Positions 11,482 to 41,584 are shown, counted from the first letter of the stretch. The stretch: DNA of 45,136 nucleotides from Lentisphaerota bacterium (GCA_016873655.1 VGWI01000013.1:1-45136), one strand, 5' to 3'. Translations and numbers: made by a program. Notes: a model not told the origin generated them from the sequence alone.

Positions 11482-12312
11482 ATGAAGACAGGTTTACTTG
11501 CCGTGGTGGCGCTTCTGCTTCCTGCGTTCTGCGCGTGCGGGCAGGACGACGGGGTCTTCAGAGTCTATCCTCTGAACGGCGGCGATGAGATAGTGCAGAT
11601 TCTGCGCGACGTTGCCGGGCCCGAAGCGCGGATTGTTCCCGACCCGCAGAGCCGCAGGCTGATGGTCTATGCCGGAACGAACGCCCACGCCCGGATAGCC
11701 TCCGTTCTGCTGGAGGCGGATCAGCCCCGGAAGAACATCAGGATAGACGTGGTTTTCGTGGAGACCGCCCAGGACACCGCCGCCGGAGCAGGGGTTGGCG
11801 GGTCAGGCCACGTCGTCATAACGCCGTCGGGAGCGGGGGGCACGGTCAAGATCACACCGCGCTTCTACAACAGGGCGACAGGCGTCGATTCGACATCCGT
11901 GCAGACTCTCATGGTCCAGAGCGGCGGCGAAGGCCGGCTCGAGGTCGGCAGTGAAATCCCCCATGTGGAGTGGCTGACCGATTACGGCGCGCGGCACGGG
12001 CTGCTGAGCGCTGAGACGAGCTGGCGGCGGGTCGGCGCGTTTCTTCGCGTCAGGGCGACAGTTGTGGGCGACGGTTCGGCGGTCAGGCTGGAGTTGACGC
12101 CGGAGATGTCGGGGCTCACGGATGCGGGAGACCAGTCCGTGCGATTCTCCGGCGTCTCCACGGAGATGACCGTAAGGAACGGCAGCACCGTGGACATCGG
12201 AGGCTTCGAGCAGAACAGGGACTTCTACAGCCGCTTCCTCGTGGGGTTCGACCGCGGCGGCACGGCGCGCAAGCTGTCAATCCGGGTAACGCCGCGGATA
12301 CTGGACAACTGA
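11482..12312 (+). CDS. short secretin-domain protein, secreted
   Basis: 276 residues. Signal peptide (about 1-18), then a secretin N1-like alpha/beta domain (about 25-82, IVQILRDV, followed by the ARIASVLLEAD helix). It continues through NIRIDVVFVET into a C-terminal secretin-type beta region (about 150-276: VGSEIPHVEW, LRVRATVV, VRLELTPEMSG, RVTPRI). Full-length GspD/PilQ secretins are 500-700 residues; this has one N-domain and a short barrel-like region. It may be an accessory or outer-membrane assembly factor, or a small pore. No type II or type IV pilus genes are near. GAGGGGGG precedes the ATG. Divergent from the methyltransferase gene. Confidence 0.75.
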   Translation: MKTGLLAVVALLLPAFCACGQDDGVFRVYPLNGGDEIVQILRDVAGPEARIVPDPQSRRLMVYAGTNAHARIASVLLEADQPRKNIRIDVVFVETAQDTAAGAGVGGSGHVVITPSGAGGTVKITPRFYNRATGVDSTSVQTLMVQSGGEGRLEVGSEIPHVEWLTDYGARHGLLSAETSWRRVGAFLRVRATVVGDGSAVRLELTPEMSGLTDAGDQSVRFSGVSTEMTVRNGSTVDIGGFEQNRDFYSRFLVGFDRGGTARKLSIRVTPRILDN

Positions 12313-12365
12313 TTCCTGCGGTATTTCCGCCGTACGGCCTTGCGTCGAGCGAATGGCGAAAGCGC

Positions 12366-12385
12366 GCCGCCCTTCGTGCGGCGGC
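12366..12385. terminator. GC hairpin downstream of the secretin-domain gene
   Basis: GCCGCC (12366-12371) can pair with GGCGGC (12380-12385) around a TTCG-containing loop, about 54 nt after the secretin stop. There is no T-run, so intrinsic termination is unproven. It also overlaps the end of the sulfatase relic on the other strand. Confidence 0.25.
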
Positions 12386-12639
12386 TACAGGAAGGTTTTC
12401 GCCGGCAGGCCGTGGCAGCCCATCATGTCGCCGTGGTCGCTTGTGAAGAAGATAATCGTGCCATCCCACTGGCCCGACGCGCGTACGGCGTCGAGGATGG
12501 CGCCGGCATGCGTATCCGCGAGGCTGCACAATCCCCAGTACCGCGCGACCAGCTCGCGCCGGCCGCGTTTGGTGTGGAGAAAGAGCGGGTTCATGGGCTT
12601 TTTCATGCCGGGATGCTGTGTTCCGGCGTCACCGGCGAG
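12385..12639 (-). pseudogene. sulfatase relic (internal fragment)
   Basis: An open stretch on the minus strand encodes a short piece of a type I sulfatase. It reads YWGLCSLADTHAGAILDAV, then IIFFTSDHGDMMG and HGLPAKTFL, and then stops at TAG. In intact sulfatases these blocks sit in the middle of the protein, with TSDHGD providing metal ligands, and the chain continues for well over 100 residues. Here both the N-terminal domain with the formylglycine site and the C-terminal part are absent, and the open stretch begins right after an in-frame stop near 12640. A decayed copy is the simplest reading. A second sulfatase remnant lies at 17044-17295 on the opposite strand, so the two bracket the polyol cassette. 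Confidence 0.72.
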
Positions 12640-12678
12640 TCAAGCCGGTTCTCCCGTTTTCCCTGCCGCCGCGGAGCA

Positions 12679-12707
12679 TTGAAAACGGCGCGCGGATGTG
12701 CGATACA
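12679..12707 (+). promoter_or_regulatory. promoter of the polyol-kinase-reductase cassette
   Basis: -35 TTGAAA (12679-12684, 5 of 6), 17-bp spacer, -10-like GATACA (12702-12707). The ATG at 12717 is only 9 nt beyond the -10 box and has no ribosome site, so a leaderless or near-leaderless transcript is predicted. Confidence 0.42.
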
Positions 12708-12716
12708 TCCCCGCGC

Positions 12717-13961
12717 ATGAGCGGCTCCCGTCATTTCGCAGGATTCGGGTTCGGCCCGATCCAGTCCGGGTTGATGCTCCTGGAAGCGCAGGCGTCCGGG
12801 AATTTCTCCCGCTTCACCATTGCCGAGGTGGACCATGGTCTTGTCGGCGAGGTGAGGGCCAACAGTGGCCGGGTAACGGTGAACGTCGCCCGGGCCGACG
12901 GCGTTGAACACCGGCTGCTCGAAGGGATAGAGATACTGAACCCGGCCGTTCCCGCCGACCGCGAGGCGCTCGTGGAAGCGGTGCGCGCCGCCGACGAACT
13001 TGCCACCGCCCTGCCCAGCGTTGATTTCTATGCCCGGGGCGGCGCAGCTTCGGTTGCCGCGGTGCTGGCCGACGGCCTCGACGGCTCGAAGCAGAGGCTG
13101 CTTTACGCTTCCGAGAACCACAACCACGCCGCAAGCCTGCTGATCAGGGCGGTGTCTGCGGCGCGCGGGGGTGCGGAGTCTGTCGGTCTGCAGGCGGTTG
13201 ACACTGTTATCGGGAAGATGAGCGGTGTTATCAGGGATCCGGCAGTTGCGGCTCGCCTCGGGCTTGCCGCCATGACGCCCGGCGGCGCGCGGGCCGTGCT
13301 GGTGGAGGCGTTCAACAGGATTCTCATATCCCGCGTGAGCCTGCCCGGCTTCGCGCGCGGGATCGGCGTGTTCGAGGAAAAGGACGACCTGCTGCCGTTC
13401 GAGGAAGCAAAGCTGTATGGCCACAATGCGATCCATGCCGTGCTTGGGTACCTCGCCCGCGGCCGGGGCCTGAAAGTGATGAGCGAGATAGCGCGTCACC
13501 GCGACCTGCTGGAACTCGGCAGGCGTGCTTTCATCGAGGAATCCGGAGCGGCCCTTATCCGGCGGCACGGCGGGTCGGGCGAGGCGCTCTTCACCCCGGG
13601 CGGGTATGCCGGATACGCCGACGATCTCCTGCGCCGCATGGTGAACCCCTGCCTGAACGACGAGATAGAGCGTGTTTGCCGTGATCCGCGGCGCAAGCTC
13701 GGCTACGATGACCGCCTCGCCGGCACGATAAGGCTGGCGGTTCAGTACGGGCTGGAGACGCCTGTGATGGCTTCCGGGGCGGCAGCAGCGCTGGAGCAGG
13801 CGCGAGTGGGCGGGGAGATCGCCGTGCCGGCCGGCGCGAGGGATGAAGCCGCGCGCCAGGCGCTGGCCGCTCTCTGGGGCCCGGCGCGGCCCGGCGACGG
13901 GGAAGTGCGCGAAGAATGCCTGCGGCGGATAGCGCGGGCCTATGCGGGAATGGGGAAATGA
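12717..13961 (+). CDS. mannitol-dehydrogenase-family polyol(-phosphate) dehydrogenase
   Basis: 414 residues, long-chain NAD(P)-dependent polyol dehydrogenase resembling mannitol-1-phosphate 5-dehydrogenase. The N-terminus has the nucleotide-binding GFGFGPIQSG (9-18). The catalytic signature is in KLYGHNAIH, with Lys232, Asn237 and His240 in the family's K-x4-N-x2-H arrangement. It would interconvert a sugar (or its phosphate) and the corresponding polyol in the cytoplasm. The start at 12717 matches the family N-terminus and fits the promoter; an ATG at 12696 is the alternative. Its stop overlaps the next gene's start (ATGA), so it is coupled to a PfkB kinase and then to another dehydrogenase. 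The true substrate is unknown. Confidence 0.82.
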   Translation: MSGSRHFAGFGFGPIQSGLMLLEAQASGNFSRFTIAEVDHGLVGEVRANSGRVTVNVARADGVEHRLLEGIEILNPAVPADREALVEAVRAADELATALPSVDFYARGGAASVAAVLADGLDGSKQRLLYASENHNHAASLLIRAVSAARGGAESVGLQAVDTVIGKMSGVIRDPAVAARLGLAAMTPGGARAVLVEAFNRILISRVSLPGFARGIGVFEEKDDLLPFEEAKLYGHNAIHAVLGYLARGRGLKVMSEIARHRDLLELGRRAFIEESGAALIRRHGGSGEALFTPGGYAGYADDLLRRMVNPCLNDEIERVCRDPRRKLGYDDRLAGTIRLAVQYGLETPVMASGAAAALEQARVGGEIAVPAGARDEAARQALAALWGPARPGDGEVREECLRRIARAYAGMGK

Positions 13962-15220
13962 CGTACAGCGGACCTGAAGTCATTGCGGCCGGACACATCT
14001 GCCTGGACCTTTTCCCCAGGTTCACGAACGAGCCGGGACGGAAACTCGGAGACCTGCTGCGTCCCGGCACACTCGTTAAGATGGGGGACATGACCTTTTC
14101 CACGGGCGGGTCGGTTTTCAACACGGGCATGGCGCTTCGCATTTTCGGGTGCAGAGTCGGGTTCGCCGCCAAGGTCGGCGATGACGCCATAGGCCGCATC
14201 ATCACCGACGTACTGCGCCGCAACGGCAATGCGGATGGGGTGAAGGTTTCGGCGGGCGAACCCAGCTCCTACACGGTGGTGCTGGCACCGCAGGGCGTGG
14301 ACCGCGTGTTCCTGCACTGTCCAGGAACGAACGACACCTTCGTGAGCGGCGACATTGATTTCAACCTTGTCCGGGGGGCGCGCCTGTTTCACTTCGGCTA
14401 CCCCACTCTCATGGATGCCCTGCACGCCGAGGACGGCAGGGAACTGGAGGCGATATTCAGCGGGGCGAAGCGCGCCGGCGCGGCCACCTCGATGGACATA
14501 TCGCTCCCGGATCCGTGTTCGCCTGCCGGCCGGGCGGACTGGCGGGCGATCTACGGGCGCGTGCTGCCGAAAGTTGACGTCTTCACGCCAAGCATTGAGG
14601 AGGCGTTTTTCACGCTCGATCCCGCCGCGTACCTCGAGCGCAAGGCGTCCGCCGCGGGTGAGGAGCTGATCGAGCATATCACCCCCGGCGAGTTCCGGCG
14701 GATAGCGGGCGAGTTCGTGAAGATGGGTTGCGCCGTTGTCGCTCTGAAGGCCGGCCACAACGGCTGGTATCTGCGCGCCGGCGACTCGAAACGGCTTGCG
14801 GCGGCCGGATCCATCTTCAGCGGCAGGGAGAAAGAGTGGGCCGGCCGCGAGCTGTGGTGCCCGGCCTTTGCGGTGGACAGGATTGTGAGCGCCACGGGGG
14901 CCGGCGACGTTTCGATAGCCGCGTTTCTCGCGGCGCTTCTGCGCGGAGCGGGTCCGGAGCGTTGCCTGAAGATGGCGAACTGCGCTGGCTACATGAACCT
15001 GCGCGCCATGGACGCGACAGGCGGCCTTGTTTCGTGGGATGAGATGGAGCGTGTTCTGCCGTCCCTGCTCGAGCGCGGCGTATCCGCGCTGGACGGAGCG
15101 GGCGGCTGGGAATGGGAAAAAGAGGAAAGGCTCTGGGAGCGCATCGGCGCCGCCGGGGCGAGAGGGAGAGATGAAAACACTGGCGGTAAGACTCTATGGC
15201 AGGAACGATCTCAGGCTTGA
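13958..15220 (+). CDS. PfkB-family carbohydrate kinase
   Basis: 420 residues. The N-terminal PfkB signature region, STGGSVFNTGMAL (48-60), binds the sugar. The C-terminal ATP/anion-hole motif is ATGAGDVS (312-319), with Asp317 as catalytic base. It phosphorylates a sugar or sugar acid with ATP. It is about 100 residues longer than typical ribokinases, mostly an insertion around 205-300 and a Glu/Trp-rich tail. That tail (after about 385) overlaps the next gene by 50 nt. The start is fixed by the ATGA overlap with the polyol dehydrogenase. Together with that enzyme and the sorbose-phosphate-reductase-like enzyme it suggests an oxidise, phosphorylate and reduce route for a sugar alcohol or ketose. 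Confidence 0.88.
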   Translation: MTYSGPEVIAAGHICLDLFPRFTNEPGRKLGDLLRPGTLVKMGDMTFSTGGSVFNTGMALRIFGCRVGFAAKVGDDAIGRIITDVLRRNGNADGVKVSAGEPSSYTVVLAPQGVDRVFLHCPGTNDTFVSGDIDFNLVRGARLFHFGYPTLMDALHAEDGRELEAIFSGAKRAGAATSMDISLPDPCSPAGRADWRAIYGRVLPKVDVFTPSIEEAFFTLDPAAYLERKASAAGEELIEHITPGEFRRIAGEFVKMGCAVVALKAGHNGWYLRAGDSKRLAAAGSIFSGREKEWAGRELWCPAFAVDRIVSATGAGDVSIAAFLAALLRGAGPERCLKMANCAGYMNLRAMDATGGLVSWDEMERVLPSLLERGVSALDGAGGWEWEKEERLWERIGAAGARGRDENTGGKTLWQERSQA

Positions 15221-16448
15221 CAGCTTCGAACTGCCCCGGATCAAGGATGACGAGATACTGGCGGATATCGTATCCGACAGCATCTGCATGTCGTCGCACA
15301 AGGCGGCCATCCAGGGCGAAGACCACAAGCGCGTTCCGAGCGACGTGGCGAAGAACCCGATCATAATAGGCCACGAGTTCTGCGGCACCATTCTCGAGGT
15401 CGGCGCCCGGTGGAAAGAGAAGTTCCAGCCCGGCCGACGCTACAGCATACAGCCTGCGATGAACGTGCCGGGGCGCGAGCTGGAGGCGCCCGGCTACTCG
15501 TTCAGGACGATCGGCGGCGCGGCCACCCGGATCATCATCCCGCGCGAGGTGATGGAGATGGACTGCCTGCTGCCGTACGACGGCGACGCGTTCTTCAAGG
15601 CATCCCTGTCCGAACCGGTCTCCTGCATAATCGGCGGGTGCAACACCCAGTACCACTACAAGTTGGGCGAGTACACCCACACGTCGGGCATCGTTGCCGG
15701 CGGCCGGATGGCGATCCTCGCCGGCGCCGGCCCGATGGGGCTGGGCGCGATTGACTACGCTCTGAACGGGCCCCGGCAGCCTTCCGTCCTGGTGGTGACC
15801 GACATAGACAACGCGCGCCTGAGCCGCGCCGAATCCGTCTTCAGCGTGGGGGAAGCCCGGCGCCGCGGTGTGGAGCTGAAGTATCTCAATACAGCGTCCG
15901 GCGACGCGGTGGCCGCGATGATGGGCTGTGTCGGCGGCGCCGGATACGACGACGTGTTCGTATATGCGCCCGTGCCGGCGCTGATTGAGCAGGCGTCGCG
16001 CATTCTCGGGTTCAACGGGTGTCTCAACTTCTTCGCAGGCCCGTCGAAGAAGGAGTTCTTCGCCTCGATCAACTTCTACGACGTGCACTACATGGGGCAT
16101 CACGTCGTCGGCTCGTCCGGCGGCAACACGGCGGACATGCGCGAAGCGCTCGACCTCATGGGGCGGAACAAGCTCAATCCTGCCGTCATGATCACGCACG
16201 TCGGCGGGCTGGATTGCGTTGTGGAGACAACGTTGAACCTGCCGAAAATACCGGGCGGGAAGAAGCTCGTCTACACGAACATCTCGATGCCGCTCACGGC
16301 ACTGGACGACCTGCCGAAGCTGGGCGAGACCGATCCGGTCATGGCCGAGCTGGCGGCGATCACGAAGGCAAACAACGGGCTGTGGTCGGCGGAGGCGGAG
16401 AAATACCTGCTTGCGCATGCGAAGCCGATCGCCGGCGCCGCGGCGTAA
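15171..16448 (+). CDS. zinc-type MDR dehydrogenase, L-sorbose-1-phosphate-reductase-like
   Basis: 425 residues. Medium-chain dehydrogenase with putative catalytic-zinc ligands Cys39, His68, Glu69 (GHEF) and Glu148. The cofactor motif is GAGPMG (185-190). The four-cysteine structural-zinc lobe of classic alcohol dehydrogenases is absent. The N-terminal wording (LYGRNDLRL, DSICMSSHKAAIQG, NPIIIGHEFCG) is what I recall for the L-sorbose-1-phosphate reductase group, which interconverts ketose 1-phosphates and hexitol phosphates. Start at 15171, after GAGGGAGAG, inside the end of the kinase gene. Its place after a PfkB kinase supports a sugar-phosphate substrate. Exact specificity is inferred. Confidence 0.83.
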   Translation: MKTLAVRLYGRNDLRLDSFELPRIKDDEILADIVSDSICMSSHKAAIQGEDHKRVPSDVAKNPIIIGHEFCGTILEVGARWKEKFQPGRRYSIQPAMNVPGRELEAPGYSFRTIGGAATRIIIPREVMEMDCLLPYDGDAFFKASLSEPVSCIIGGCNTQYHYKLGEYTHTSGIVAGGRMAILAGAGPMGLGAIDYALNGPRQPSVLVVTDIDNARLSRAESVFSVGEARRRGVELKYLNTASGDAVAAMMGCVGGAGYDDVFVYAPVPALIEQASRILGFNGCLNFFAGPSKKEFFASINFYDVHYMGHHVVGSSGGNTADMREALDLMGRNKLNPAVMITHVGGLDCVVETTLNLPKIPGGKKLVYTNISMPLTALDDLPKLGETDPVMAELAAITKANNGLWSAEAEKYLLAHAKPIAGAAA

Positions 16449-16469
16449 CAGAAAGAAAAGGGGGTGCCC

Positions 16470-17009
16470 GTGCTAAGCCTCAAGAACACGGTGTTTGTCC
16501 TCGTTGACGCGCAGACGAGCCTGTTTTCGGCGATGCCGGACAAAGAGGCCTTGCTCCGCAATCTGGAGCGGCTTGTGCAGGGCATGCAGACCCTTGAGGT
16601 GCCGCTCATATTGCTCGAGCAGACGCCGGACAAGATAGGGCGCACGCTGCCCGAGCTCCGCAGGTTTCTCGGGGCGCTGGAGCCGGTGCAGAAGGAATGC
16701 TTCAGCTGCTGCGGCAGCGAGGAGTTCATGTCCGCGCTGAAGGCGACAGGCCGCCGGCAGGTTGTCATCGCGGGCATCGAGACGCACGTATGCGTGTACC
16801 AGACGGCGACCGATCTTGCGCACGGCGGCTACGATGTGGAAGTCGTCGCAGATGCTGTTTCATCGCGCAGCCCGCAGAACAGGGAACTTGCGCTGGCAAG
16901 GATGCGCCAGTCCGGTTGCGGGCTGACGAGCGTGGAAATGGTGCTGTTCGAACTGATGCGCACCTCGGCGCATCCTGCATTCCGCGATGTTCTGCGGATC
17001 GTGAAATAG
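16470..17009 (+). CDS. isochorismatase-family cysteine hydrolase
   Basis: 179 residues. The catalytic triad of the family is complete: Asp13 in LVDAQ, Lys75 in VQKECFS and Cys108 in GIETHVCVYQT, with the cis-peptide preceding the Cys block. Small members of this type are amidases or hydrolases of uncertain substrate (YcaC-like), not necessarily acting on isochorismate. GTG codons occur at 16464 and 16470; the second is chosen because AAAAGGGG then sits at a usable distance. It follows the sorbose-phosphate-reductase-like gene by about 20 nt and is in line with the polyol cassette. Confidence 0.85.
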   Translation: MLSLKNTVFVLVDAQTSLFSAMPDKEALLRNLERLVQGMQTLEVPLILLEQTPDKIGRTLPELRRFLGALEPVQKECFSCCGSEEFMSALKATGRRQVVIAGIETHVCVYQTATDLAHGGYDVEVVADAVSSRSPQNRELALARMRQSGCGLTSVEMVLFELMRTSAHPAFRDVLRIVK

Positions 17010-17043
17010 CGGCCGGATGCGGGCGCACGGAAGGAAGGCCCCA

Positions 17044-17295
17044 ATGAAGGCCATAATGGTGATGTTTGACTCCCTGAACCGGCACATGCTTCCGCCCTGC
17101 GGGTGGAACCGGGTGCATGCGCCGAATTTCACGCGGCTGGCGTCGAGGTCGGTCACGTTCGACAACTCGTATGCCGGCAGCATGCCGTGCATGCCGGCGT
17201 GCCGCGAGATGCACACAGGGCGCTACAACTTCCTGCACAGGAGCTGGGGGCCGCTCGAGCCGTTCGAGCGGCTCGGGCTTGCCGGGAACGAATGA
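17044..17295 (+). pseudogene. truncated sulfatase N-terminus
   Basis: 83 codons. The first 70 or so match the N-terminus of a type I sulfatase (VMFDSLNRHMLP, APNFTRLA, then MHTGRYNFLHRSWGPLEPF). The active-site signature C-x-P-x-R reads CMPAC followed by RE: the Arg two residues after the Pro is Cys, one CGC-to-TGC change from CMPAR. After EPFE the sulfatase likeness ends and eight residues later a stop occurs, whereas intact enzymes are around 450-550 residues. The TGA overlaps the ATG of the next gene (ATGA), as if a large internal deletion kept the original 3' end. Probably inactive, though its frame and operon position are preserved. Confidence 0.75.
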
Positions 17296-18245
17296 AGGAT
17301 GGCCGACAGGGCGGGGCGGCAGTCCCGCAGCGGGTTGTGATAGTCGGCCCCGGCGCCATCGGGTGCCGGCTTGCCGCGCACCTCTCGGCGGCGGGGCGCG
17401 ATGTCTGTCTTCTTGACCGCGACGAGGGCCGTGCTGCCGTCTTGAGGCGGGATGGTGTGGTTTCGGGCGAAGGCGCCGGGCAGGCGCGCGGGTTTCCCCG
17501 TATCGAGGTGGACCCGCGTGCTGCCGGTCCGGCCGGCTGCGTGGTTGTGTGCGTCAAGGCGTACGACACGCCGGCTGCCGCGCCGGGCGCCGTTGCCGCA
17601 TGTGCGCCCGGCGGGGTGATTGTCTCGCTCCAGAACGGGGCAGGCAATGCGGAGGCGCTTGCCGGGGCCGCGGGCGCGGCGGACAGGATCGTCTGCGCAG
17701 TGACCGGCGCGGGCGCGTTGCTCACGGCGCCGGGACGGGTGACGCCGTTCGCCCCGTTCAGGATCGAGGCGGCTCCGCTTGTGCCGGGCTCGGACGCGGC
17801 AGTCAGGGCTTCGGTGATGCTCGAGTGCGCCGGCGTGGACTTCGCGGTGAGCCCGGACGCTGCGACTCTACTGTGGGGCAAACTCGTCGTCAGCGCCGCC
17901 ATAAACGCCTTGACAGCAATCGAGCGAATCCGCAACGGTGAACTCCTTTCGCGTCCTGAAGCGAGGGCCGCCGCGTTCGCCGCGGCGTGGGAAGCCGGGG
18001 CGGTTGCGCGTGCCGCCGGAGTCCGGCTCCCCTATGGAGACGAAGCCGCTGAGGTCGAGCGTGTTTGCGCGGCTACTGTCGGGAACAGGTCTTCGATGCT
18101 TTGCGATGTCGAGGCGGGGCGCAGGACCGAGATCGGCGAAATAAACGGCTTCGTGGTCCGCGAGGGACGCAGGCTTGGTGTTGCCGTTCCGGCGAACGAA
18201 ATGCTGCTTCGGGAAATCGGAAGGCTTGTGGAGGCAAGGCCGTGA
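17292..18245 (+). CDS. 2-dehydropantoate 2-reductase family protein (ApbA/PanE)
   Basis: 317 residues. NADPH-binding Rossmann motif [10 protein letters not shown] (19-28). Family blocks CVKAYDT (87-93) and SLQNGAGN (112-119) are present, as is the C-terminal catalytic region with Lys197 in [14 protein letters not shown] and the [11 protein letters not shown] block. Classic PanE reduces ketopantoate to pantoate for coenzyme A, but many homologues reduce other 2-keto acids, so the symbol is withheld. The start at 17292 overlaps the stop of the sulfatase remnant, and its TGA overlaps the GTG of fhs (GTGA). Ketopantoate is made by PanB from methylene-THF, which fits the folate genes downstream, but no panB is visible. 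Confidence 0.8.
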
Positions 18246-38473: not shown

Positions 38474-39906
38474 AGCGCCTTGTCCGTGCGGACATACATC
38501 CGGTTTCCGTCGAAGCACGGCCGGCTTGGCACCCATGCCGACGTCTTTTTCGCCAGGACCCCTTCTCCCAGCTTGGCGAACACGCGGCCGGGTTTGAGAG
38601 TTGCGAACACGCCAAAGTCGCAGTTGACCACCAGCATTCCGCCGGCGGCCGAGATGGACGGGTACCGCCAGTGCCCGCCTTTCGCCCGGTCCTGCCGTCC
38701 GATCGGTATTCTGGCCCTGTAGCACGGTTCGCCGGTGGAAACGTCCGATACGGACAGGTTAAGGTCGCGGTCCAGCAGGTACAGCAAGCCGTCGAAGACA
38801 AGCGGGCTTGGGTGGTGGCGGCCGGTTGTGAGGTCATCCCTTTCCCACGCGCGTTCCAGCCGCAGGCGGTTCCGGCGTCCGAGTTCGATCCTCACCGGGT
38901 ACACGTAATCGCCTTCGCGGCGCGGAAGGTTCTTCAGCTTCTTGCCCTGCATGTGAGACGGTTGTTCCACGAATAGAACCGTGTCGCCGTCGCCGATGAC
39001 GACGGGCGACGCGGCCTCGCCGCAGATCCCGATGCCGCGATGCAGCAGGCGGCCATTGTCCAGCCGCGCCACGGCGCCGCCGGCCGAAACGACGAGGTCC
39101 GTGTCCGATGCGCGGGCGATGACGGGCGAGCCGCATCCCCAGCCCGGCGCGCGGAAAACGCGGCTTTTCCAAAGCCTCTTACCCGTCTCCGCATCCAGCG
39201 CGATAAGTCCCTGATACTCCCATGCCGTTCCGTCCGTCTGCCAAGTCTCCGGCGCCCACGTGAAGACGAGCTTCCCATCCCTGAGCAGCGGCGAAGCGTA
39301 GGTCAGTTCGAGATCGTGCCCGCGGCCGGCCGGGTAAAGCGCCGACCACAGCAAGTTGCCTTCCAGGTCGAAACATGCGGCGACGCCGGTCCCGATGCGG
39401 ACCCAGACCCGCCGTCCGTCAGTGACAGGGGTTGACGAGGTGTAGCCCGCCTCGTACCAGCGCGGTTCCGGAACGCCCAGCGCGTTCAGGCGCGGGGCGA
39501 TGTGCCTCTTCCACTCGTCGCGGATCGGCGTGCCGCGCCTGGCGAAGTACCACTCATGGAAACGGGAATGATGAGACTCGAACTCCGCGCGCCGTTCCGG
39601 GCGTCGCATCGCGGAAAAGACATCAACCTTGCGCGCCCACAGGATCGCCCCGGAACCGGCGTCAAGGCACAGGAGCGTATCCGGCTCCGCGAGCGTGAAG
39701 ACGCGTCCGTCCGCGACAACAGGGGATGCCGAGGATTCAGCGGGCATACCCGCGACCCACAGAATGTTGACGCCGGCTTCCTCGTCGAACACCGCGGGCG
39801 GCGAAGCGCCGGGCCAGACATCGGAGCCGTCATTGCGCCATCCGTTGGCCCGCGCGTCCGCCGCCGTGAAGTGGGTCAGCGCGAGCAACGCGAGGCGCAG
39901 CGCCAT
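38428..39906 (-). CDS. secreted PQQ-binding-like beta-propeller protein
   Basis: 492 residues. Signal peptide (about 1-20), then repeated propeller blades with the PQQ-type pattern in which a segment like SSASPVVADGRVFTLAEPDTLLCLDAGSGAILWARKV recurs at intervals, e.g. TPVTDGRRVWVRI, ALDAETGKRLWKS and SPLVFDGLLYLLD. Such proteins in PVC bacteria are usually called outer-membrane or periplasmic PQQ-like repeat proteins; most do not bind PQQ, and no catalytic residues stand out here. ATG 39906 is chosen for its signal peptide; a start at 39963 would add 19 residues before it. The 3' end overlaps the GT4 gene on the other strand. Confidence 0.85.
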   Translation of the reverse strand: MALRLALLALTHFTAADARANGWRNDGSDVWPGASPPAVFDEEAGVNILWVAGMPAESSASPVVADGRVFTLAEPDTLLCLDAGSGAILWARKVDVFSAMRRPERRAEFESHHSRFHEWYFARRGTPIRDEWKRHIAPRLNALGVPEPRWYEAGYTSSTPVTDGRRVWVRIGTGVAACFDLEGNLLWSALYPAGRGHDLELTYASPLLRDGKLVFTWAPETWQTDGTAWEYQGLIALDAETGKRLWKSRVFRAPGWGCGSPVIARASDTDLVVSAGGAVARLDNGRLLHRGIGICGEAASPVVIGDGDTVLFVEQPSHMQGKKLKNLPRREGDYVYPVRIELGRRNRLRLERAWERDDLTTGRHHPSPLVFDGLLYLLDRDLNLSVSDVSTGEPCYRARIPIGRQDRAKGGHWRYPSISAAGGMLVVNCDFGVFATLKPGRVFAKLGEGVLAKKTSAWVPSRPCFDGNRMYVRTDKALYCIGPRPAPAAASR

Positions 39907-40078
39907 GACGGCGCCGCCGCGCGGCCGGGTGCAGCCTGCGTTTCGTGGCAATGATCCGTGCATGTCCGATCTCGAAACCTACTCAATCGGGATTCCAGAT
40001 TTCGGAGAACACGGATACGCCACCCCGCCTGCTCTGTCAATCTGCGGCAGCGCGTGGTTCCAGGTCCTTCGCAATGGG

Positions 40079-40107
40079 TTGCGCGGACGGCTGGCAGGCC
40101 GTATGCT
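40079..40107 (+). promoter_or_regulatory. promoter of the TIR-SUMF1 gene
   Basis: -35 TTGCGC (40079-40084), 17-bp spacer, -10 TATGCT (40102-40107). The leader is about 30 nt and carries GGGGAGG, well placed for ATG 40145. Confidence 0.5.
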
Positions 40108-40144
40108 CGTGCGGCAAACGTGCTTCACAGGGGAGGTCATGGTC

Positions 40145-41584
40145 ATGGGGGGCGCGCGGCGGACCGGGCCGTCTTTCTTCATCAGTCACTCATCGAAGGA
40201 CCGCGAGGCGGCCGACGAACTGTGCGGTCAGCTTGAGTCGCGTGGCGCGGTGTGCTGGATAGCGCCCAGGGATGTGACTCCCGGCGAGCCGTACGGCGCG
40301 CAGATCGTGGCCGGGCTTGAGCGGTCTTCCGCGCTGGTCTTCCTTCTTTCATCGAGCTCGAACGCGTCGCGCCATGTCGAGAGCGAAGTCGCCCGCGCGT
40401 TCGAGAAAGGAAAGGACATCTTTCCCGTGCGGCTCGAGGAGATCAAGCCGTCGCCCGAACTGGAGCTTTTCGTAACATCCCCGCACTGGATAGATGCCTG
40501 GCGGACCGGCATGGCGAAGGCGGCTGAAGCGTTGATTGCGGCGTCCCGGGCCGGCGGGAGCCCGAGGCCGGGCGCGGGGGCGGGGAGACGGGGCGGGCGG
40601 AGAGTGGGGATCCTTGTTCCGTCCGTCCTGTTGCTTGCTATGATCTGCGTCTTCGGGTGGGCGGCGGTTTATCTTGCCTCCAATCCGCGGGAGCGCGAGC
40701 GTCTGCGTGGATTCCTGACCGGGCAGAAGGACGAGCCGTCCGCCTCCGTTCCGGCGGCGCCGGTTCCTTCGCCTGCGCCTACCGCTTCCGTTGTGCAGGC
40801 GGCGATGCCTGTTCCTGAAGTTGCCGCGGCGACCGGGCAGGAGAACGTTCTTCCGACTGAGCTGCCCAGGCCTGTTTCCGCGCCGTTTGTGCCGCACTAC
40901 CTGGAGACAGGCGACCCGGTGATGGAGTTTGTGTGGATCCCCGCGGCGGGCATCTGGGCCGGGCGCTACGAGGTCACCAACCTGCAGTACCGGCGTTTCA
41001 GGCCGGATCACTGGGCCGGAAGATTCCGGGGCGAGGAGATGGACGGCGACTCTAATCCGGTGGTGCGGGTCACGGCGGGGGACGCGGCGGCGTTTGCCGA
41101 GTGGCTGACGCGGCGGGAAGCGGAGGCGGGCCGTCTGCCTGCCGGCGCGAGACTCAGGCTGCCAACTGGAGAAGAGTGGATGCTCATGGCCGAGTGCGGC
41201 GACGGGCGTCCGTTCCCGTGGGGCGGCGAGTGGCCTCCGCGTTTCGGCAACGTGGCGGACCGCGCGCTGGCCAGACTTTCCTGGGGTTGGGCGTACATTG
41301 ACGGATACCAGGACGGGTACGCGTTGACGGCGCCGGTGAAGGAAAGCGGGGCGAACCCGTGGGAGATACACGGCCTTGCGGGGAACGTGTGGGAATGGAC
41401 TTCGGACATTTCCGGCGGCGAAACCGCGGCGCGCGGCGGAGCATGGGATTCCTGCGGCGAGGAATCGCTGCGTTGCCGGACGCAGGTTCTTCTTCCTTCC
41501 GGCGAGTCCCAACCGACTGTCGGGTTCAGGCTCGTGCTCGAACCCGGTCCCGACGGGCCAGCGGGTACTTCGCCGTCCAGCTGA
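40145..41584 (+). CDS. TIR domain - transmembrane - SUMF1 (formylglycine-enzyme-like) protein
   Basis: 479 residues. TIR domain (about 8-125): FFISHSSKDREAAD, CWIAPRDVTPGEPY, and the S-x6-E spacing Ser75 to Glu81 that places the NADase glutamate. Then a Gly/Arg linker, one membrane helix (about 155-178), a Pro/Ala/Ser-rich stalk (about 195-250), and a SUMF1/C-lectin-fold domain (about 258-465: EFVWIPAAG, GRYEVTNLQYRRF, RLPTGEEWMLMAE, GNVWEWTSD, RGGAWDS, VGFRLVLE). The paired Cys (436 and 443) are not at formylglycine-enzyme spacing, so catalysis there is doubtful. With an N-terminal intracellular TIR and an outside SUMF1 domain it reads as a receptor-effector. ATG 40145 fits GGGGAGG better than 40139. 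Confidence 0.85.
   Translation: MGGARRTGPSFFISHSSKDREAADELCGQLESRGAVCWIAPRDVTPGEPYGAQIVAGLERSSALVFLLSSSSNASRHVESEVARAFEKGKDIFPVRLEEIKPSPELELFVTSPHWIDAWRTGMAKAAEALIAASRAGGSPRPGAGAGRRGGRRVGILVPSVLLLAMICVFGWAAVYLASNPRERERLRGFLTGQKDEPSASVPAAPVPSPAPTASVVQAAMPVPEVAAATGQENVLPTELPRPVSAPFVPHYLETGDPVMEFVWIPAAGIWAGRYEVTNLQYRRFRPDHWAGRFRGEEMDGDSNPVVRVTAGDAAAFAEWLTRREAEAGRLPAGARLRLPTGEEWMLMAECGDGRPFPWGGEWPPRFGNVADRALARLSWGWAYIDGYQDGYALTAPVKESGANPWEIHGLAGNVWEWTSDISGGETAARGGAWDSCGEESLRCRTQVLLPSGESQPTVGFRLVLEPGPDGPAGTSPSS

Follow-up and report, generated by a model that had tools for sequence, protein, structure and literature searches.

The DNA analysed here (the window) is a stretch of 45,136 nucleotides that makes up an entire contig (C13) of the 3.08-Mb draft genome, in 243 contigs, of an uncultured Lentisphaerota bacterium of the PVC group. 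It contains three overlapping genes, called A, B and C below, whose products could together convert a ketose into fructose-6-phosphate (F6P) by moving the carbonyl to the opposite end of the sugar phosphate, a reading that we hold tentatively and at slightly below even chances. In this route B would phosphorylate the ketose at C1. C would then reduce the C2 carbonyl adjoining the phosphate in a SorE-type, NAD(P)H-dependent reaction, giving a hexitol phosphate, i.e. D-glucitol-6-phosphate from L-sorbose-1-phosphate or D-mannitol-1-phosphate from D-fructose-1-phosphate. Finally, A would oxidise the far-end carbon of the hexitol phosphate to F6P in an M1PDH-type reaction. The net conversion would be ketose + ATP to F6P, and redox would balance provided that C and A use the same cofactor. 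In other words, it would be the L-sorbose (Sor) route with a cytosolic kinase replacing the PTS and an MtlD-type enzyme replacing the SDR SorD. It is plausible that A, B and C serve a shared route; its substrates, the C1 position, the direction and the co-transcription of A-B-C are what we infer. Both L-sorbose, from the kinship of C with SorE, and mannose/fructose, from the links of B homologues to GH38 mannosidases and to lyxose/mannose isomerase, are candidates for the sugar.

The initial annotation had described four open reading frames in a fixed order with a 4-bp and a 50-bp overlap, and the coordinates agree with it, all genes being on the plus strand: A (12717-13961, 414 aa), B (13958-15220, 420 aa), C (15171-16448, 425 aa) and D (16470-17009, 179-181 aa). 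A and B overlap by the 4 bp ATGA, and C begins inside the 3' end of B, 50 bp before the end of that gene, at a position (15171) that corresponds to the start of SorE homologues. For D, the sequence makes a GTG start at 16470 more likely than one at 16464, because AAAAGGGGG lies upstream of this GTG and D homologues begin there; the gap between C and D would then be 21 bp. The joint promoter that had been proposed for the four genes was not detected, as a simple scan of 12300-17400, limited to the sigma-70-like type, found 0 matches versus 0.5 expected by chance. No transporter or regulator was found to accompany the cassette and, in comparison with Klebsiella and E. coli, no mannose-family PTS genes were found beside C among the ORFs at roughly 9-23 kb in the window.

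Two degraded sulfatase pieces lie on either side of the cassette, namely an N-terminal piece of 83 aa (17044-17295, plus strand) and a middle piece containing stops (about 12406-12630, minus strand). As neither piece continues and the two are on opposite strands, we rejected the simple explanation that the cassette interrupts one sulfatase gene. Sulfatases are also found close to homologues of B or A in four other loci (L040, L119, L126 and L167). The start codon of a ketopantoate reductase gene (PanE/ApbA, 17292-18245) overlaps the stop codon of the plus-strand sulfatase piece. Elsewhere in the window, at 39629-41584, a single ORF appears by eye to combine a TIR-like N-terminal domain with a formylglycine-generating-enzyme-like domain.

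The C protein is a medium-chain zinc dehydrogenase (MDR; ADH_N and ADH_zinc_N domains) that shares 52-53% identity over 98-99% of its length with annotated SorE proteins of Klebsiella, Serratia, Citrobacter and E. coli, and about 49% with YggP. In a phylogenetic tree it groups with the SorE/YggP clade with 100/100 support, apart from other MDRs, which agrees with its earlier description as L-sorbose-1-phosphate-reductase-like. The C...GHE motif of the catalytic-zinc type is retained in the alignment. The named activity of SorE is on a phosphorylated substrate: SorE reduces the carbonyl beside the phosphorylated carbon, and oxidation at the opposite end is the task of SorD or MtlD. By this relationship we propose that C is a ketose-1-phosphate reductase; as YggP is in the same clade, the substrate of C could differ. 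No second MDR related to C was found in the window genome. Elsewhere, C orthologues are vertically inherited with an SDR or lie beside dnaK or ruvA. The neighbour family c8 was rejected as a gene linked to C, as it is RuvA and unrelated. Genes resembling those of pyruvate dehydrogenase (fused E1, E2, E3) adjoin SorE-type C orthologues in four loci (L142, L143, L145 and L147).

The A protein belongs to the MtlD family of long-chain dehydrogenases (Mannitol_dh_C domain, PF08125, 1.5e-14). Its best-scoring curated models are those of mannitol-1-phosphate 5-dehydrogenase, though well under the cut-off (NCBIfam: 1.3e-26, 93.6 bits, versus an equivalog cut-off of 368 that is not reached). The AlphaFold model (pLDDT 92) has M1PDH structures as its top PDB folds (3h2z, 5jnm and 7oc*), with mannitol 2-dehydrogenase structures ranking behind; identity to 3h2z is 23%. 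Residues K232, N237 and N134 match a Lys/Asn/Asn set that has been reported for MtlD (PMC11784389). They do not vary among A-type and classical MtlD proteins, and neither does an RDPxRKL motif, in which we infer a phosphate-binding function. The nucleotide-binding motif is divergent, being GFGFGPIQSG in A and GFGFGxIQxG in A-type proteins versus GAGxxGRG in the classical ones. This GFGFGxIQxG subfamily is large and spans multiple phyla (e.g. L111-L130, L179, L193 and L197). The slot beside B homologues is filled by either form. By its motifs and predicted fold, A is an M1PDH relative, and we propose that it acts as a far-end hexitol-phosphate dehydrogenase. PHP-domain phosphoesterase-like proteins occur beside A-type MtlD or beside C/SDR genes in several loci (L145, L147/L267, L264-L266, L202 and L134).

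The place of A in the proposed route is also suggested by the distribution of the SDR. C orthologues in genomes of the same order and class usually lie beside, or coexist with, a SorD-like SDR that, among curated entries, matches sorbitol-6-phosphate dehydrogenase best (8.5e-65; PDB 5o3z, 8e-48). We compared 31 genomes of the class in which C has at least 58% identity: 25 of them have the SDR, which lies within about 2 kb of C in 15, and six lack it. No SorD-type SDR was found in the window genome at 1e-45, the best unrelated SDR having 34% identity. A (E<1e-60) is present in all six SDR-less genomes versus 7 of the 25 SDR-bearing ones (Fisher p 0.0023, uncorrected for kinship; the counts were read by hand, and the six genomes are not phylogenetically independent). 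This pattern fits A taking over the role of SorD. In the other genomes, A does not adjoin the C orthologues that lack the SDR.

The B protein is a PfkB/ribokinase-family kinase (PF00294, 8.5e-22; 78.3 bits versus a cut-off of 25.8) in which G314, G316 and D317 of the GAGD catalytic motif are invariant among relatives. Its length, earlier called oversized, is ordinary for its own family, where relatives have about 380-420 aa. It passes no curated kinase equivalog among IolC, ribokinase, fructokinase, 1-PFK and KDG kinase, the best being IolC with 69.4 bits versus 300; an inositol route for the cassette was rejected, IolC/IolM-like scores being far under the cut-offs. In the predicted structure (pLDDT 90.8) disorder is confined to the last ~22 residues, including the stretch that overlaps C. 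The best PDB fold match is E. coli YdjH (3h49), at an identity of only about 22-23%, and fructokinases are also among the structural matches. A PfkB-superfamily ketohexokinase of haloarchaea yields fructose-1-phosphate (PMC11519228). By analogy with this precedent, together with the resemblance to YdjH and a class II aldolase beside one B homologue, B is a candidate ketose (C1) kinase; in that locus (L051/L255, 185-2575) the aldolase gene is directly followed by the B-family kinase gene. At least 575 B relatives in many phyla were found in a wider scan, and no plasmid records carrying B were found. Elsewhere, B homologues follow GH38 genes and sit with glycoside hydrolases and isomerases, including lyxose/mannose isomerase. 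Pyruvate-dehydrogenase-like genes adjoin B and MtlD in Chloroflexi (L197, L202 and L242). Speculatively, the B family could supply the L-fuculokinase that has been reported as missing from Pontiella (PMC7356697).

The fourth gene, D, encodes an isochorismatase-family hydrolase (YcaC/MAR1-like; PF00857, 4.4e-31) that the initial annotation had counted as a pathway member. Its orthologues are single-copy and present in 155 of the 388 phylum genomes searched, nearly order-wide and in unrelated surroundings, and no adjacency to A, B or C was found among these 155 genomes. In one family (f42) A and D are 5-12 kb apart, amid arginine and other housekeeping genes; this closeness was rejected as a functional link and is ordinary housekeeping synteny. 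D is about 9 kb from C in one genome (G081). D is probably a neighbour and not a part of the pathway.

The phylum searches always used the identical draw of 388 genomes, of which 46 have B, 118 the A family (about 90 of them strong matches) and 86 relatives of C. A and B are at most 3 kb apart in 6 of the 21 genomes with both, when 0.04 would be expected (p ~3e-12), and one genome of the same order (L155/G406) has B near C. All three genes occur together in no searched genome besides that of the window. The exact set of four genes is not conserved among the relatives searched, and the conservation that the initial annotation had looked to holds at another level: the trio of enzyme types PfkB, MDR and MtlD recurs in several phyla. 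Among the best 80 of at least 575 B loci, an MtlD-family gene is present in 10, and in five of them, from Elusimicrobia (L186), Chloroflexi (L197, L202 and L251) and Firestonebacteria (L239), both an MtlD and an MDR gene lie within 8 kb. The MDRs of these trios are of a different clade (23-32% identity to C), and the MtlD is sometimes classical. In a same-order genome (G345, locus L130), genes for a xylose-isomerase-like protein, a PfkB kinase other than B, an MDR and an A-type MtlD are consecutive, with a kinase/MDR overlap of 4 bp. In Spirochaetes (L179), A-type MtlD, B and D-lyxose isomerase genes are consecutive. Lyxose-isomerase or xylose-isomerase-like genes often accompany trio loci; no member of the D-lyxose isomerase family was found in the window genome. 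That the enzyme types recur with their subfamilies swapped suggests selection on the set of reactions.

Two dehydrogenase families around one kinase had already been recognised in the cassette, and the assignments of A, B and C bear this out. The order then suggested, from polyol to sugar phosphate to polyol phosphate, is better read as ketose to ketose-1-phosphate to polyol phosphate to ketose-6-phosphate, and the view that no named pathway matches was too pessimistic: C, and A by its role, correspond to the SorE/SorD branch of the L-sorbose pathway. This pathway is the closest known system, from which the cassette differs in the phosphorylation step and the final dehydrogenase. As in the Sor operon SorCDFBAME of Klebsiella, E. 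coli and Lactiplantibacillus, C is in the SorE clade, the proposed logic is from ketose-1-phosphate over hexitol-6-phosphate to F6P, and same-order relatives retain SorE with the SorD-like SDR. However, the window lacks a mannose-family PTS, a SorC regulator and the SDR, and has a PfkB kinase and an MtlD-family enzyme instead. In the cryptic mannitol PTS locus cmtBA-yggP of E. coli, YggP, of the same MDR clade as C, is encoded with mannitol-phosphate-forming genes, but this system is PTS-dependent and has neither a PfkB kinase nor an MtlD-type gene in between; no functional characterisation of YggP was found in the literature searched. The mannitol operons mtlA-mtlD (PTS) and the mtl operons of the P. 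fluorescens/P. aeruginosa type (ABC transporter with dehydrogenase/kinase) share with the cassette an M1PDH relative, the conserved Lys/Asn/Asn set of A and the far-end oxidation chemistry. They differ in that the cassette has no mannitol transporter and that a SorE-type reductase has no role in them. By membership the cassette is outside both the Sor operon and the curated MtlD family, and it may work like both.

Other explanations of the cassette were considered. A and/or C might oxidise free polyols to ketoses, with B phosphorylating these at C6 like a fructokinase. Mannitol/sorbitol operons encoding an MtlK-type dehydrogenase and the MtlZ fructokinase are of this kind; the pairing of PfkB with the MtlD superfamily is typical of such free-polyol operons and fits here, as do the fructokinases among the structural matches of B. 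One dehydrogenase and one kinase would be enough, and two dehydrogenases could handle two polyols. We nevertheless judge this route rather unlikely: in profile and fold A resembles M1PDH more than mannitol 2-dehydrogenase, and it keeps RDPxRKL, the clade of C is named for an activity on a phosphorylated substrate, and a polyol transporter was not seen nearby. The three genes might also belong to separate pathways and be together by chance or history, C being a SorE/SDR-type enzyme, A a general M1PDH-like one, and B a kinase of mannose or another ketose working with GH38 enzymes and isomerases. The restriction of the exact set to the window genome among those searched, the vertical inheritance of C orthologues with the SDR or beside dnaK/ruvA, and the position of B downstream of GH38 genes elsewhere are in line with this. 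The 4- and 50-bp overlaps, an A-B adjacency far exceeding chance and the occurrence of the trio with 4-bp overlaps in unrelated phyla argue against separate pathways, which we find unlikely.

The E. coli ydjEFGHIJKL operon provides another comparison, since its PfkB kinase YdjH is the top fold match of B and is encoded with the zinc dehydrogenases YdjJ and YdjL. The operon also encodes a DeoR regulator and an aldolase, and YdjH and YdjI prefer carboxylate-ended long-chain monosaccharides (PMC9602453). B could by analogy act at C1 of a long-chain or acidic ketose, with related polyols or uronates, and not hexitol phosphates leading to F6P, as substrates of the dehydrogenases; the aldolase adjoining B in L051/L255 would suit such a pathway. 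However, the identity of B to YdjH is low, the ydj operon has its own aldolase and aldo-keto reductase and no MtlD-family gene, the window cassette lacks an aldolase, and the mannosidase and lyxose/mannose isomerase links point to plain hexoses or pentoses, so we consider this pathway improbable. Every dehydrogenation step being reversible, the cassette could also run in the biosynthetic direction, A reducing F6P to a hexitol phosphate, followed by oxidation by C or by dephosphorylation. The PHP-domain phosphoesterase genes close to A or C in other genomes would be compatible with that. The kinase would then serve no purpose, though, and B occurs elsewhere with glycoside hydrolases and isomerases, suggesting catabolism. 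We regard this direction as very doubtful, and hold the same low expectation for its products, a mannitol-like solute or a ketose-1-phosphate precursor.

The conversion of a ketose to F6P by B, C and A may be one version of something broader. The trio loci with isomerase genes raise the possibility of a widespread and undescribed 'phosphate-end switch' pathway, from aldose to ketose, ketose-1-phosphate, hexitol phosphate and F6P, of which the window would hold the SorE-type version. Its steps would be carried out by a lyxose-/xylose-isomerase-like enzyme, a PfkB kinase, an MDR and an MtlD-family enzyme, assembled repeatedly from interchangeable subfamilies of the last three. This generalisation is possible but somewhat doubtful. 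We found no description in the open-access literature searched of a route made of PfkB, SorE-type and MtlD-type enzymes, or of a pathway combining a C1-kinase with SorE. If right, the proposal would provide a function for three large enzyme families that lack annotation: for the B-type PfkB kinases present in many phyla, for the GFGFGxIQxG relatives of MtlD and for dehydrogenases of the SorE/YggP type. What was a vague 'polyol cassette' would become a set of named and directly assayable reactions, and PVC bacteria without a sugar PTS at the locus would have an L-sorbose-type route that they could use.
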